From positions 1-63,600 of the forward strand of contig CAJQPO010000025.1 in assembly GCA_905480225.1 (NCBI GenBank): 63,600 nt of DNA, given 5' to 3'. Origin of the DNA: an uncultured Flavobacteriales bacterium. GTDB taxonomy: Bacteria; Bacteroidota; Bacteroidia; Flavobacteriales_D; Parvicellaceae. Below are positions 32,375 through 40,323 of this stretch, piece by piece; within the stretch, counting starts at the first letter, position 1; the number at the start of each line of letters is the position of its first letter. Under the pieces are notes generated by a model. It was not told the DNA's origin. It saw only the letters and a program-made list of their open reading frames with translations, and did not search any database. Both the position numbers and the translations under genes were made by a program.

Positions 32375-33148
32375 ATGAGTGTTCAAGCAAATATTCATCC
32401 AGACGCGCAGATAGGCAAAGGCACTGTAATTGAAGCGTTTGCAACTGTACAAGGGGATGTCAAAATTGGAGAAAATTGCTGGATTGGTCCTGGTGCGTGC
32501 ATCATGGATGGCGCAAGAATTGGAAATAATGTGAAAATTTTTCCTGGAGCAATTATTTCCATTGTCTCACAAGATTTAAAATACAACGGAGAATACACCA
32601 CTACTCATATTGGAGACAACACTACAATTAGAGAATATGCCACTGTTCACAAGGGTACAACGGACAGGAATAAAACTGTAATCGGAAGTAACTGCTTACT
32701 AATGGCTTATGTTCATATTGCACATGATTGTATTTTGGGCGATCACGTAATTATTGCTAATTCGAGCCAGATAGCCGGGCATTGCAATATAGAGGATTGG
32801 GTAATTATTGAAGGGGTTGTGGCCGTTCAGCAATTTGTTACCATTGGAGAGCAAGCATTTATTGCTGGAGGTTCTTTAGTTCGAAAAAATGTTCCGCCTT
32901 ATGTTAAAGCTGCTAGAGAGCCTCTTTCCTATTGTGGGGTGAATGCCATTGGTCTAAGGAGGCGTGGGTTTACAGATACTCAAATTGCCAATATAGAAGA
33001 CGTCTATCGCGTGATTTACATCATGAATAGTAATATTTCAGAAGCCATAAAAATTGCGGACTTAGAGATTCCTAATTCTAATGAAAAAGACACGATATTA
33101 AAATTTATTCGAAACTCTAGTAAAGGAATAATGCGTGGAATTTCTTAA
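32375..33148 (+). CDS. lpxA: Acyl-ACP:UDP-N-acetylglucosamine O-acyltransferase
   Basis: LpxA catalyses the first step of lipid A synthesis, moving a hydroxyacyl chain from ACP to UDP-GlcNAc. The 257-residue protein is a beta-helix of hexapeptide repeats with the catalytic segment HIAHD (114-118) and the C-terminal helical domain. The GVNAIGLRRRGFT motif that marks LpxA is present. It starts 2 nt after lpxC-fabZ, and its TAA is immediately followed by the ATG of the next gene with no spacing, so the downstream kinase-like gene is very likely on the same transcript. Confidence 0.96.
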   Translation: MSVQANIHPDAQIGKGTVIEAFATVQGDVKIGENCWIGPGACIMDGARIGNNVKIFPGAIISIVSQDLKYNGEYTTTHIGDNTTIREYATVHKGTTDRNKTVIGSNCLLMAYVHIAHDCILGDHVIIANSSQIAGHCNIEDWVIIEGVVAVQQFVTIGEQAFIAGGSLVRKNVPPYVKAAREPLSYCGVNAIGLRRRGFTDTQIANIEDVYRVIYIMNSNISEAIKIADLEIPNSNEKDTILKFIRNSSKGIMRGIS

Positions 33149-34213
33149 ATGGATATTTCAAAGAAAAAAGAACTATACCCTATAAGTTCGGGACTTCGAA
33201 AGTACCTGAGAGAGTTCGATAGAGAAAAAAACATTCCTGTATCATATGGAGACTTACTGCGTTACAAAGACGGTTTTCCATTGTTCGATAAGACCGGGAA
33301 AGACACCTTGTGGGAAACGGTTATGTTCGATCCAGAATCGCAAGCTGAACTTAATTTTGGATTGACTTCTATATATGCCCTATTGAAAACCGACGGAGAC
33401 CTCTCTGTTATGGAGCACTTAATAGTCGATCGTATTGATTACTGCCAATTCGGAAATTCAAAACCATTTAGAGTTAGAATTGTTAACCAATTCAATGATA
33501 ATTATGACTATTTCTATGTTAAAACCGCAGATGCTTCAAGGGTATATGGATTAGAACTGGAACATATTTTATCACCCAACAGAATTAACTACTTAGTGAA
33601 TAAGAATTCGCTAATTGAAGAACACATTGCTGGAATTCCTGGCGATGCTTTCATTAATTACTACATCAACCTTCCTAATTTTAATAAAGTACGACTTGCC
33701 AAAGAATTTGTAAAATTCAATGAACGATGTTTTGTACGCTTACTCGGTGACATGCGTTCTTACAATTACGTAATTGATGTAACTCCTGATTTTGAAGAAG
33801 AACAATATCGTGTTCGAGCACTTGATTTTGATCAGCAGAGCTACGAAGGTCGGCTTAGAATGTACATGCCTCAGTACTTCAAGGAAAACAACAAGATTGT
33901 CAACTTTTGTATTGAAGTGATGAACCCCGAAACGGTTCGACAATATCAGTATGAGGAACGAACCTTGATGAAAAGAAGATACGAAGCCGCTAAAGAAAAA
34001 ATTGACAAATTAATGGCGTGTATGGTACTTGACGAGATATCAACTTCTGATAAAACAAAACGCATAATTAATGAGTTAAATGTCCATCACAAAACAACCG
34101 GCTTTAATAACTGTAAAAATATGGGTGAAGCTGTTCGTTTGCATTTACAAAAAATGCTAACTAAACCAAAACCTGAAAAACTCACAGGAAAGGCAAGCTT
34201 TAAGCTGAAATAA
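33149..34213 (+). CDS. Unknown protein with kinase-like (APH/HipA-type) signature, lpx operon
   Basis: I do not recognise a named family, but the 354-aa product can be read as a kinase-like fold. A lysine in a beta strand (K125 in FYVKTAD) is followed by an acidic helix-like stretch (E136, E138). A hinge-like EEHIAGIPG lies at 157-165. The catalytic-loop-like LLGDMRSYN has D201 and N206, exactly the D-x4-N spacing of protein and aminoglycoside kinases. RALDFD, with D226, resembles the DFG/DFD metal site. The N-terminal 80 residues hold no recognised domain. The C-terminal 90 residues are helical. There is no signal peptide. The gene abuts lpxA with no gap and precedes pheT by 30 nt. Function and substrate are unknown. 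Confidence 0.65.
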   Translation: MDISKKKELYPISSGLRKYLREFDREKNIPVSYGDLLRYKDGFPLFDKTGKDTLWETVMFDPESQAELNFGLTSIYALLKTDGDLSVMEHLIVDRIDYCQFGNSKPFRVRIVNQFNDNYDYFYVKTADASRVYGLELEHILSPNRINYLVNKNSLIEEHIAGIPGDAFINYYINLPNFNKVRLAKEFVKFNERCFVRLLGDMRSYNYVIDVTPDFEEEQYRVRALDFDQQSYEGRLRMYMPQYFKENNKIVNFCIEVMNPETVRQYQYEERTLMKRRYEAAKEKIDKLMACMVLDEISTSDKTKRIINELNVHHKTTGFNNCKNMGEAVRLHLQKMLTKPKPEKLTGKASFKLK

Positions 34214-34243: not shown

Positions 34244-36688
34244 ATGAACATCTCCTATAAGTGGCTTAAGACCTATATCGACACCGACATTTCTGCAAAC
34301 GAAATGGCCAGAATTTTAACAGATACTGGTCTGGAAGTTGAAAAATCTCATGAAATTGAAGCAGTACCTGGTGGCCTTAAAGGATTAATGGTCGGCCTCG
34401 TTTTAAAAAAAGAAAAACACCCTGACGCCGACAGATTATCTGTTTGCACGGTGGATATTGGAGCGCTTGAGGCACTTCAAATTATTTGCGGCGCTCCTAA
34501 TGTAGCTGCGGGTCAAAAAGTAATTGTTGCTCCTGTGGGCATTCGTCTGCACCCTTTAAATGGGGAACCATTTAAAATCAAAAAATCAAAAATTAGAGGC
34601 TTGTCGTCTCATGGAATGATCTGTGCAGAAGATGAAATTGGTTTAGGAAAGGGGCACGAAGGGATAATGGTACTTGACCAAATTGCCGAAGTTGGCACAT
34701 TAGCATCGTCCTATTTCAACCTGGAAACAGACATTCAATTCGAAATTGGATTAACACCAAATCGTGCAGACGGAATGAGCCATATTGGAGTAGCGCGTGA
34801 TTTACTTTGTGCCCTTAAACATCAAAATGTAATCACCCAAAAGAGCTTTGTTAAATGGCCCAATATTGAAGATTTCAAAATAGACAATGACAATGTTAAA
34901 CTTGACATTACTGTTCAAGATACCGATGCGTGTCCACGATACGCAGGACTCGCGATTTCGGGAGTGTCAGTTGGTCCATCTCCGGACTGGTTGCAAGATA
35001 GACTAAGATCTATAGGCTGTAACCCCATCAATAATATTGTAGATGCCACTAATTTCGTTTTACATGAACTGGGTCAACCACTACATGCTTTTGATTTAGA
35101 AAAAATCAATGGCAATAAAGTAACCGTAAAAAAATTAGCAGCAAATACGAGCTTTACGACATTAGATGGGATTGAAAGAAAACTGGATGATCAAGACCTG
35201 ATGATATGTGATGATAAAGGAGGGATGTGTCTCGCTGGTGTATTTGGAGGGTTGAGCTCTGGTGTAACTGAAAGCACATCTTCAATTTTTCTAGAGAGTG
35301 CCTATTTTAACCCAGTATGTATTCGAAAATCTGCAAAACGGCATGGGCTTAACACTGATGCTTCATTTCGATTTGAACGAGGCATTGATCCTTCTAGGGT
35401 AGTTTTTGCTTTAAAAAGAGCTGCTTTGCTGATTAAAGAGATTGCTGGAGGGCATATTTCTTCCGAAATAACAGACATCTACCCAGAAGCGATTGCAGAT
35501 TTTACAGTCAATTTTAACACCAACCGTCTGAATGCCATTGCAGGAATTGCGATTGAACACGACACAGTAATCAACATTTTAACGAGTCTAGACATAGCGG
35601 TATTGAAAGTAAACGAAAGTATCTTGCAGCTTAGGGTCCCATCCTACCGGGTAGATGTCCAAAGAGAAATCGACGTTATAGAAGAAGTACTTCGAATCTA
35701 TGGATTCAACAACATCCCGATTTCCGAAAAAGTAAATTCTTCTTTATCCTACCGCAGCAATCCGGATCTTGAAAAGATGCAAAATATTGTATCTGATGTA
35801 CTGGCTTCAAATGGATTCGCAGAAACCATGTCGAACTCGTTAACTAAAAGTAGCTATGTTAATCAAGAAGAATTCAGGGGCATGAATGCTGATTGGAATG
35901 TATCCATGCTAAATCCATTAAGTAGTGATTTAAGCGTACTTCGTCAGTCGCTTGTATTTTCTGGATTAGAAACTATCGCTTATAATCAAAACAGACAGGA
36001 GCAAGACCTGAAACTTTTTGAGTTTGGTAAAGTGTACTTTTCTAGAGAGAAAAAGTACGATGAGCAAAAGCATTTGGCTATTTTTTTAACAGGAAAAAAA
36101 CAAACGGAGCAATGGTACTTAAAACCTCAAGATGTTTCATTTTATTCCATAACAGGTGCAGTCAATGCGGTTCTTTCGAGATTGGGGATTTTTAAAAATC
36201 AAAAGTCTACTCCTACTAAAAATGATTTATTTGCAGAAGGTATTACCATTAGTATAGGTAAGACAAAGGTCGCAGATCTAGGTAGAATTAAACCTGATTT
36301 ATTAAACAAAATGGGAGTTCATCAGGCGGTATTCTACGCTGAAATCAATTGGGATAATTTGATGGGACTCATGTCTATGAATAAGACCAAGTTTAAGCCA
36401 TTAACGAAATTTCCCACAGTACGTAGAGATCTTTCATTGCTTCTAGATGAAAAAATATCCTTTGCAGAAATTGAGTCTATTGCAAGAAATTCTGAAAAAT
36501 TACTTCTAAAAGAAGTAGGGTTGTTTGACGTCTACGATGGCAAAAACATTGCAGCAGGCAAAAAATCCTATGGTATAAAATTCATTATGCAAGATTCTGA
36601 AGGAACACTTGATGACAAAAGAATTTCTTCCATCATGTCTAAAATTAAATCCAAGCTAGAAGACCAGCTGGGAGCCGAATTAAGATGA
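34244..36688 (+). CDS. pheT: Phenylalanine--tRNA ligase beta subunit
   Basis: This is the large subunit of the alpha2-beta2 PheRS that charges tRNA-Phe. At 814 aa it has the full domain set: an N-terminal MNISYKWLKTYI segment, a tRNA-binding OB fold (about 40-150, with KHPDADRLSVC and CGAPNVAAGQ), the B3/B4 editing domain (about 210-400), B5, a catalytic-like domain, and the C-terminal FDX-ACB anticodon-binding domain starting near KFPTVRRDLSLL. No truncation is seen. A near-consensus -7 box, GAAATTTG, ends 5 nt before the ATG. Its stop overlaps the next gene's start in ATGA. pheS is not in the window. Confidence 0.97.
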   Translation: MNISYKWLKTYIDTDISANEMARILTDTGLEVEKSHEIEAVPGGLKGLMVGLVLKKEKHPDADRLSVCTVDIGALEALQIICGAPNVAAGQKVIVAPVGIRLHPLNGEPFKIKKSKIRGLSSHGMICAEDEIGLGKGHEGIMVLDQIAEVGTLASSYFNLETDIQFEIGLTPNRADGMSHIGVARDLLCALKHQNVITQKSFVKWPNIEDFKIDNDNVKLDITVQDTDACPRYAGLAISGVSVGPSPDWLQDRLRSIGCNPINNIVDATNFVLHELGQPLHAFDLEKINGNKVTVKKLAANTSFTTLDGIERKLDDQDLMICDDKGGMCLAGVFGGLSSGVTESTSSIFLESAYFNPVCIRKSAKRHGLNTDASFRFERGIDPSRVVFALKRAALLIKEIAGGHISSEITDIYPEAIADFTVNFNTNRLNAIAGIAIEHDTVINILTSLDIAVLKVNESILQLRVPSYRVDVQREIDVIEEVLRIYGFNNIPISEKVNSSLSYRSNPDLEKMQNIVSDVLASNGFAETMSNSLTKSSYVNQEEFRGMNADWNVSMLNPLSSDLSVLRQSLVFSGLETIAYNQNRQEQDLKLFEFGKVYFSREKKYDEQKHLAIFLTGKKQTEQWYLKPQDVSFYSITGAVNAVLSRLGIFKNQKSTPTKNDLFAEGITISIGKTKVADLGRIKPDLLNKMGVHQAVFYAEINWDNLMGLMSMNKTKFKPLTKFPTVRRDLSLLLDEKISFAEIESIARNSEKLLLKEVGLFDVYDGKNIAAGKKSYGIKFIMQDSEGTLDDKRISSIMSKIKSKLEDQLGAELR

Positions 36689-38160: not shown

Positions 38161-39087
38161 ATGAAATTCGAAGAATCTAAGACACTTAAAGAGATAGCTG
38201 ACTTCTTGGGTTGTGAGTTCGAAGGTTCAGAGAGTCATTTGATTCATGGAGTAAACGAAATTCATCGTGTAAGCAATGGAGACATTGTCTTTGTTGATCA
38301 CCCGAAGTATTATGACAAAGCACTTAATTCTGCCGCAACCACCATTCTAATTGATAAGCGAGTAGCTTGTCCGGATGGCAAAGCACTCCTCATATCAAAA
38401 AATCCATTCAACGATTTCAACACGTTAACAAAACATTACCGCCCATATAGCCATTGGACCAAAGCCATTAGTGACAGTGCGGTAATTGGCGAGAACACAA
38501 TGATTCATCCTAATGTTTCCATTGGACACCACGTTACAATTGGCGATAATTGCATTATCCATGCTGGCGTTGTCCTAATGGATAGATGTCAAATAGGCAA
38601 TAACGTAATCATTCAATCCAATACAACTATTGGAACAAGTGCTTTTTATTATCAAAAAAAGGATTCTACTTACAATAGATTGCACACCTGTGGTTCTGTC
38701 ATTATTGAAGATTTTGTAGAAATTGGGGCATTGTGTTCTATCGATGCCGGAGTTACCGCCACCACAGTTATTGGTGCTGGCAGTAAATTAGATAATCAAG
38801 TGCATATTGGTCACGATACCAGAATTGGAAAAAATTGCCTTTTTGCCGCCCAAGTTGGAGTGGCTGGATGTGTTGAAATTGAAGACAATGTAACTTTATG
38901 GGGACAAGTAGGAGTTCCGGCTAACAGAAAAATTGGAGAAGGTGTTACTGTTCTAGGTCAATCTGGCGTCTTAAAAGATTTGGAAAGTGGAAAAACTTAT
39001 TTTGGAAGTCCTGCTGACGAAGCAAGAATAAAATACCGAGAGCTTGCTTTGCTGAAGAAATTACCCACTATTATTGAAAATCTGTAA
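38161..39087 (+). CDS. Second LpxD-like acyltransferase
   Basis: The 308-aa paralogue of LpxD has an N-terminal domain of about 90 residues and a hexapeptide-repeat beta-helix. The catalytic-type His is kept in VHIGHD (H215 and H218), the latter aligning with H243 of the lpxD product at 29934. It lacks the longer helical tail of LpxD1. In Bacteroidota such second copies are common; whether it acylates the lipid A precursor or another sugar is open. It stands outside the lpx operon and is directly joined (stop next to start) to the SpoIIE-type phosphatase gene. Confidence 0.85.
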   Translation: MKFEESKTLKEIADFLGCEFEGSESHLIHGVNEIHRVSNGDIVFVDHPKYYDKALNSAATTILIDKRVACPDGKALLISKNPFNDFNTLTKHYRPYSHWTKAISDSAVIGENTMIHPNVSIGHHVTIGDNCIIHAGVVLMDRCQIGNNVIIQSNTTIGTSAFYYQKKDSTYNRLHTCGSVIIEDFVEIGALCSIDAGVTATTVIGAGSKLDNQVHIGHDTRIGKNCLFAAQVGVAGCVEIEDNVTLWGQVGVPANRKIGEGVTVLGQSGVLKDLESGKTYFGSPADEARIKYRELALLKKLPTIIENL

Positions 39088-40323
39088 ATGGCTCGAGCTA
39101 AATTTAATAGACTTCATGAAAAACTTCAGCTGAAAGAATTCAAGCTGAATTCATTACTTGAGATTACCAAAGCAATTAATGAAAATTATTCCATTGATCG
39201 CATTCTAAATATTTACGAATACATTTTAAGAGAGCAATTGGGCATAAGTAAGCTAATGCTTTACAGTAAACAAAGTGAATGGTGTTGCTTACTTAAATAT
39301 GGTGTCCGTGGAGAGGCGAAAAAGATAAATGCAGAAAAAGACATTACACACATCAAAGACATAACGGTTATAGAATCTTCTTCTGTTTCTTCACTTAATT
39401 CTTTTGATGTTGTTATTCCCGTTCATCACAAGGACCGACCTCTAGCCTATTTGCTTATTGGCGACTTAAATGAAGATGAAATCCGGATTAGTCCAACCAT
39501 CAAACACATGCCTTTTATTCAGACTCTTACTAATATTATTATAGTAGCGATTGAAAATAAAAGACTTGCCAAAGAAAGTTTAGAACAAGAAGTTGCCAAA
39601 AAAGAACTTGAAGTAGCCCGACAAATGCAAGCGCTTCTTTTCCCTCAAAATCTCCCGTCCAATAACAGACTTGACGTTGCGGCTAAGTACGAAACCAAAC
39701 AAATGGTTGGGGGCGATTACTATGATTTCTTCAAATTGAACAATGAAGAATATTGTTTGTGCATTGCGGATGTTTCTGGTAAAGGTGTCTCAGCAGCACT
39801 GATAATGAGTAATTTCCAAGCCAATCTCAGAGCCCACATCAAATACCACAAAGAACTGACGATTAAAGACATGATTCACCAGTTAAATACTGATGTTATG
39901 AATGCGGCTGATGGAGAAAAATTTATCACCTTTTTCTTTGCCTACTACAATTGTACTAGTAAGACATTAAAATATTGCAACGCTGGACACAACTATCCTA
40001 TTTTAACTAATGGAAAAAAAGCCATTCAATTAGACAAAGGGTGTATCGGGCTGGGAATGCTCGATGAAATTCCTTCCATTTCAGTAGAAACACTGCCTAT
40101 CGAATCTCAAATGACACTGTTTTGTTATACTGACGGACTTGTTGAACTTGAAAATGATCGAGAGGAAGCCTTCGAAACCGAACGGTTACTAAAAATTATT
40201 CATAACAACTACGACTTAAGTATGACTGATCTATCAGAAATGATATTCTCAGAACTTGATCGATACAAAGGCGACCTTGAATTTTTAGATGATACCGCAA
40301 TATTAGGTTGTCGTTTCTTTTAA
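39088..40323 (+). CDS. PP2C-like SpoIIE family phosphatase with GAF-like sensor
   Basis: The 411-aa product combines a GAF-like N-terminal region (about 25-160), a short coiled helix (about 160-185; KKELEVARQMQALLFP) and a SpoIIE/RsbU serine phosphatase domain (about 195-411). The manganese-binding motifs are present: GGDYYDFF, IADVSGKGVSAALIMS, YCNAGHN and a late TDGLVE with further Asp residues (FLDDTAI). Such phosphatases usually dephosphorylate anti-sigma antagonists in partner-switching pathways. No kinase or antagonist gene is adjacent. It begins directly after the LpxD-like stop, so the two are co-expressed. Its 3' end overlaps the convergent ligase gene by 21 nt. Confidence 0.92.
   Translation: MARAKFNRLHEKLQLKEFKLNSLLEITKAINENYSIDRILNIYEYILREQLGISKLMLYSKQSEWCCLLKYGVRGEAKKINAEKDITHIKDITVIESSSVSSLNSFDVVIPVHHKDRPLAYLLIGDLNEDEIRISPTIKHMPFIQTLTNIIIVAIENKRLAKESLEQEVAKKELEVARQMQALLFPQNLPSNNRLDVAAKYETKQMVGGDYYDFFKLNNEEYCLCIADVSGKGVSAALIMSNFQANLRAHIKYHKELTIKDMIHQLNTDVMNAADGEKFITFFFAYYNCTSKTLKYCNAGHNYPILTNGKKAIQLDKGCIGLGMLDEIPSISVETLPIESQMTLFCYTDGLVELENDREEAFETERLLKIIHNNYDLSMTDLSEMIFSELDRYKGDLEFLDDTAILGCRFF

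Follow-up and report, generated by a model that had tools for sequence, protein, structure and literature searches.

Organization of the locus

The window, a 63,600-nucleotide stretch of DNA from an uncultured Flavobacteriales bacterium, contains on its forward strand a gene (positions 33149–34213) for a protein of 354 amino acids which, based on its open reading frame and translation, AlphaFold2 modeling and fold matches in the PDB, we annotate as a putative PKL-fold kinase of PI3K/PIKK-like architecture. Its neighbors on the same strand are lpxA upstream (32375–33148; Pfam Hexapep and Acetyltransf_11) and pheT downstream (34244–36688; Pfam B3_4, B5 and tRNA_bind). Both provide context only, and synteny analysis indicated that the position next to lpxA is not conserved. 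The ATG of the kinase gene abuts the TAA of lpxA, so the spacing between the two genes is zero. An earlier note on this DNA had described this arrangement, and the ORF coordinates confirm it for the window, although it is not a family-wide property. As read from the sequence, the gene order is lpxD, lpxC/fabZ, lpxA, the kinase gene, pheT, a PlsC-like acyltransferase gene, a second lpxD-like gene and an RsbU-like gene, with lpxA and pheT being confirmed by Pfam. The second LpxD-like hexapeptide acyltransferase gene (38161–39087) has zero spacing to the RsbU/SpoIIE-like phosphatase gene (39088–40323). A consensus scan for promoters and terminators separating lpxA from the kinase gene did not outscore shuffled sequences.

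Conserved catalytic motifs

The earlier note had pointed to LLGDMRSYN (D201 and N206), RALDFD (D226), K125, E136, E138 and a hinge-like EEHIAGIPG, and all of these are located at the residues that it named. Their conservation was analyzed in an alignment of 133 homologues that reaches down to ∼42% identity with the window protein. The N-lobe sheet (33419–33526, + strand; assigned from DSSP of the model and conservation) comprises strands 91–99, 107–113 and 118–126, and contains the P-loop-like sequence CQFGNSKPFR, of which C99, N103, P106 and R108 are found in 133/133 homologues, and K125, the predicted ATP-binding lysine. The following K125-T-A-D128-A-S-R131 motif and helix C with E136/E138 (residues 129–141; 33521–33571, + strand) were delineated from conservation, PI3K sequences and the model. 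K125, D128, R131 and E138 are invariant, and position 136 is E in 130/133 homologues and E or D in 132/133. Strand 5 and the hinge (LIEEHIAGIPG; 33611–33643, + strand), assigned from the model and conservation, contain the invariant residues E157, H159, G162 and P164.

In the catalytic loop (LLGDMRSYN; 33740–33766, + strand), G200, D201, M202 and N206 are present in 133/133 homologues, and residue 203 varies, being R in 103 of them and H in the other 30. The DFD motif, predicted to bind metal and equivalent to DFG (ALDFDQQ region; 33815–33838, + strand; assigned from conservation), has D226, F227, D228 and Q229 invariant. The distance between D201 and D226 is 25 in 132/133 homologues and is thus a family feature. 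The earlier note had attributed this long stretch to an insert around residues 212–220, which agrees with a modeled strand-turn-strand (207–213 and 218–224). In distant relatives the loop has the form classic for the kinase superfamily, GDMH[SA]GN: at eight loci outside the class of the window organism, which form one fully supported group in the tree, LLGDMH[S/A/T]GN is followed by [P]IDFDQQ.

The conservation of the residues named in the earlier note is far beyond chance, and poor conservation of D201, N206 and D226, the outcome that would have spoken against a kinase, is contradicted by their invariance. The ATP lysine, helix C glutamate, catalytic aspartate, loop asparagine and metal aspartate of the PKL superfamily are all matched (K125, E138, D201, N206 and D226, respectively). 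The catalytic ones among the ten key residues listed for the kinase superfamily (PMC1821047) have clear equivalents in the window protein.

Predicted structure

An AlphaFold2 model of the window protein, obtained with an alignment of 45 homologues, had a pLDDT of 93.1 and a pTM of 0.90. A second model, of a distant member of the GDMHSGN type and from a different alignment, had a pLDDT of 92.1 and the same order of elements. Both models are two-lobed, with an antiparallel N-lobe sheet and helix C and a helical C-lobe, which is the arrangement of the PKL fold. In the window model, the three N-lobe strands and helix C are followed by strands 148–151 and 154–158, helices 165–171 and 180–197, the loop with D201 and N206, the two strands of the strand-turn-strand, the DFD motif and helices that extend to residue 337. 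From the fold and the positions of the secondary structure elements, K125, D201, N206 and D226 are expected to converge in one pocket.

Foldseek searches of the PDB with both models gave Vps34, Rio2, SMG1 and many protein kinases as leading matches. When the best 1000 Foldseek matches were re-ranked with VIA-align, the best 50 of the 1000 entries were all PI3K, PI4K or PIKK for both models. The top entry for the window model was mTOR (9ed4; Z of 13.9, rmsd of 4.6, 278 residues aligned), and that for the second model was Vps34 (8rxr; Z of 13.6, rmsd of 4.5, 269 residues aligned). Hundreds of kinase chains had a Z of at least 8. The structural match spans residues 13–343, well past the core two lobes. 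The Z values are high without being decisive, the identity is ∼10%, and likeness of predicted folds does not prove function. HipA and APH structures were not among the fold matches listed, which is no test of either kinship. The kinase fold that the earlier note had proposed was supported: the AlphaFold2 models of two distant members are bilobal and their best PDB matches are kinases.

Relationship to known kinases

Single-sequence and profile searches found no relatives in Pfam, NCBIfam, PADLOC or among PDB sequences, so the earlier description of the gene as hidden was apt. None of 45 members had a Pfam match at an E-value of 1, and none of eight distant members had a kinase Pfam match even at an E-value of 10. 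No match to PF00454 was listed for either set at these E-values, and the window genome had none. The HipA, APH and RIO Pfam models also did not match family members, no sequence bridge from the family to known kinases was found, and our literature search found no paper on it. In hhalign comparisons with four PI3K/PIKK sequences, checked against the PDB, P was 0.27–0.59, which is not significant; the catalytic loop and DF[D/G] were nonetheless in register, with the GD-x-x-x-x-N loop and DFD placed on GDRHxxN and DFG of PI3K. Since the comparison at the sequence level gives no significant link to PI3Ks, the case for kinship is built on the fold and the motifs.

The family is alike in overall fold to PI3K, PI4K and PIKK enzymes (PF00454; Vps34, PI3K gamma, PI4KIII beta, mTOR, ATM/Tel1 and SMG1). 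A GD-x-[H/R]-x-x-N loop and a DF[D/G] motif are common to both groups, and the KHGDDLR sequence of Vps34 and PI3K gamma has the same spacing as K125-x-x-D128-x-x-R131 of the window protein, after the third strand. In contrast, the window family shares ∼10% identity with these enzymes, lacks a significant profile match to them, is a bacterial stand-alone domain without helical or FAT regions, and contains DM[R/H]xxN and DFD in place of DRHxxN and DFG. Its spacing of 25 residues from loop to DFD is a further difference. The loop is GDRHPSN in mTOR and KDRHNGN in PI4K beta (PDB sequences). A D-x-H-x-x-N loop is common to APH, RIO and PI3K-type kinases, and RIO/APH/ABC1-type atypical kinases resemble the distant family members in their GDMH[SA]GN loop, with Rio2 among the top Foldseek matches; the family differs from them in having no Pfam match to their models, and VIA-align places PI3K/PIKK above them. 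HipA and HipA-like proteins are bacterial kinases of the same superfamily, but the window family has no match to the HipA Pfam model. The Lani_1194/NoeA kinase-methyltransferase, a recently described PKL family that also occurs in Flavobacteriales, differs in that the lysine is replaced by R and a methyltransferase is fused to the kinase (PMC9758233); the window family has K and no second domain.

Taken together, fold and motifs suggest that the window protein works like a kinase and most resembles the PI3K/PIKK branch. It belongs to a real, undescribed family of predicted kinases, widespread and unnamed, which is a new family of a known superfamily. The fuller proposal, that it represents a bacterial branch of PI3K/PIKK kinases, widespread in Bacteroidota, unrecognized by family databases and phosphorylating a conserved bacterial substrate, is one that we put forward tentatively, at somewhat less than even odds.

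Distribution and probable gene transfer

The kinase gene is present in 38/100 close genomes and in 99/395 sampled Bacteroidota genomes (about a quarter), almost always in one copy, and no paralogues were found in the window genome. The GTDB collection contains at least 587 loci, mostly in Bacteroidota and in a few MAGs labeled Verrucomicrobiota or Fibrobacterota. Relatives in such MAGs (L084, L104, L106, L110 and L080) have 55–59% identity and reflect either transfer or mislabeled contigs. The dN/dS value between L001 and L002 is 0.018, and the gene is under strong purifying selection. Copies from the taxonomic family of the window organism (L001–L007 with L011; L026; L021 with L028) are scattered over the tree, a quick one in which the deep forks are weak. 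This pattern fits gene transfer with random landing, and the gene would be partly horizontally spread. No plasmid, phage or viral-contig relatives were found, and a mobile-element or phage gene was rejected on this basis; a defense system was rejected because there was no PADLOC match.

One genome (G188) has two copies, L162 and L165, of which L165 has 42% identity, a very long branch and an LpxD-like gene a few genes upstream of it. In another (G346:C1:3158148-3158407), two short adjoining kinase-gene fragments with stops are apparently a decayed copy.

Genomic context and lipid A synthesis

The earlier note had suggested a role in envelope lipid or protein phosphorylation and a synteny check of how often the gene follows lpxA. 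It does so in only 4 of ∼133 loci (some of which are near-duplicates): L001, L002 and L003 from the window genus and L006 from the same taxonomic family. These four copies form one tree group, with a reported support of 93 and a value of 89 at the drawn fork. Elsewhere the upstream genes encode a LytTR regulator (Pontibacter), a DUF3817 protein (Cyclobacteriaceae), a PEP-utilizing enzyme, a carboxylase, a PPIase, bestrophin, a glycosyltransferase and more, and a Pfam scan of upstream and downstream neighbors revealed no common partner gene. LpxK (PF02606), the lipid A 4′-kinase, shares with the window protein only the proposed role and is separately present in 27/30 relatives, among them the two other genomes of the window genus, which carry the lpxA-kinase pair. 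It was not found in the window assembly (96% complete, 129 contigs), probably owing to an assembly gap. The PF02606 search did not report the kinase gene, and no LpxK or LPS-kinase Pfam match was obtained.

A kinase of lipid A or an LPS precursor, acting with LpxA, LpxC and LpxD, would agree with the zero gap after lpxA, the position between lpxD-lpxC/fabZ-lpxA and the PlsC-like acyltransferase gene, and the second LpxD-like gene nearby. However, the lpxA position is confined to one small clade, LpxK already exists in the genus, and relatives adjoin bshA, LytTR regulators, DUF3817, PEP-utilizing enzymes and others, so we rejected this reading on synteny and LpxK presence and regard it as very improbable. 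The link to lipid A was not supported. The location of the gene within this operon reflects a recent, local accident and gives no clue to function; in the lpxA-adjacent clade it is probably co-transcribed with lpxA while playing no part in making lipid A.

A bshA-like glycosyltransferase gene, named by sequence reading, lies directly upstream at five loci outside the window's class (L153, L155, L158, L159 and L161; gaps of −4 to 86 nt), which is the only context common to several families. A bacillithiol link was also considered and rejected: BshC is present in 384/395 genomes, so its co-occurrence with the kinase gene says nothing.

Proposed mechanism and substrate

The intact frame, purifying selection, invariant catalytic set and high-confidence bilobal model together make it quite probable that the window protein is a cytosolic, catalytically competent PKL-fold kinase, with an architecture nearest to PI3K/PI4K/PIKK, encoded by a stand-alone accessory gene that has moved between lineages. 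In such an enzyme, K125, paired with E136 or E138, would hold the ATP phosphates, D201 would be the catalytic base, and N206 and D226 would hold Mg2+. The gamma phosphate would then be transferred to an acceptor bound by the conserved DFDQQxYEG...YxPQxFKEN segment together with the C-terminal helices. The gene itself, transferred between lineages, would have landed behind lpxA in one clade. The high conservation of the segment after DFD suggests one conserved acceptor. No partner gene indicating a metabolite or protein substrate was found among the neighbors. By judgement, a protein ranks first, since the match to the PIKK group is as good as that to the lipid kinases, though our confidence in it is a little under even; a small molecule is a less likely acceptor, and a lipid is less likely again.

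A small-molecule phosphotransferase of the aminoglycoside or metabolite kinase type would be in line with the APH/RIO-type GDMH[SA]GN loop of distant members and with an accessory, partly transferred gene, but with no APH Pfam match, no copies on plasmids or phages, and best folds among PI3K/PIKK, it seems rather doubtful. A phosphoinositide or other phospholipid kinase, the bacterial counterpart of PI3K/PI4K, draws on the presence of Vps34, PI3K gamma and PI4KIII beta among the best fold matches, yet the PIKK protein kinases mTOR, Tel1, ATM and SMG1 match equally well. Co-occurrence with INO1, considered as a pointer to phosphoinositides, gave no association: inositol-1-phosphate synthase is missing from 83/99 carriers, including the window genome, and both genes occur in 16 genomes versus 15.5 expected (Fisher p of 0.87). 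This null result for de novo inositol synthesis makes a phosphoinositide substrate less likely, and we consider a phospholipid kinase unlikely. A protein that retains the kinase fold but has lost phosphorylation, either a pseudokinase or an enzyme of another transfer such as AMPylation or glutamylation, is more improbable still; it would suit the replacement of DFG by DFD and the R that most members have where the loop usually has histidine, but pseudokinases rarely keep the full K, E, D, N, D set, which is fully invariant here, and DFD retains the metal aspartate.

If the predicted enzyme is an active kinase, Bacteroidota gain a phosphorylation activity that is unstudied and easily tested, in a strongly constrained family encoded by at least 587 loci and unnamed in every library searched. 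The main microbial kinome survey, from 2007, places PI3K among eukaryote-specific families (PMC1821047). If the window family is active and its nearest folds are those of PI3K/PIKK, it is relevant to whether a branch so listed has bacterial relatives, and if it is a true bacterial branch of these kinases, it would be a prokaryotic relative of that branch.

Other proteins account for the weak PF00454 matches in Bacteroidota genomes, and some of these are HipA-like by eye. L127, L132 and L142 represent a separate family in Bacteroidota, ∼265 aa long and weakly similar to PF00454, with the signature N[VM]DRTxRNTNML...LIDHGAxLYFH, which is HipA-like by eye.
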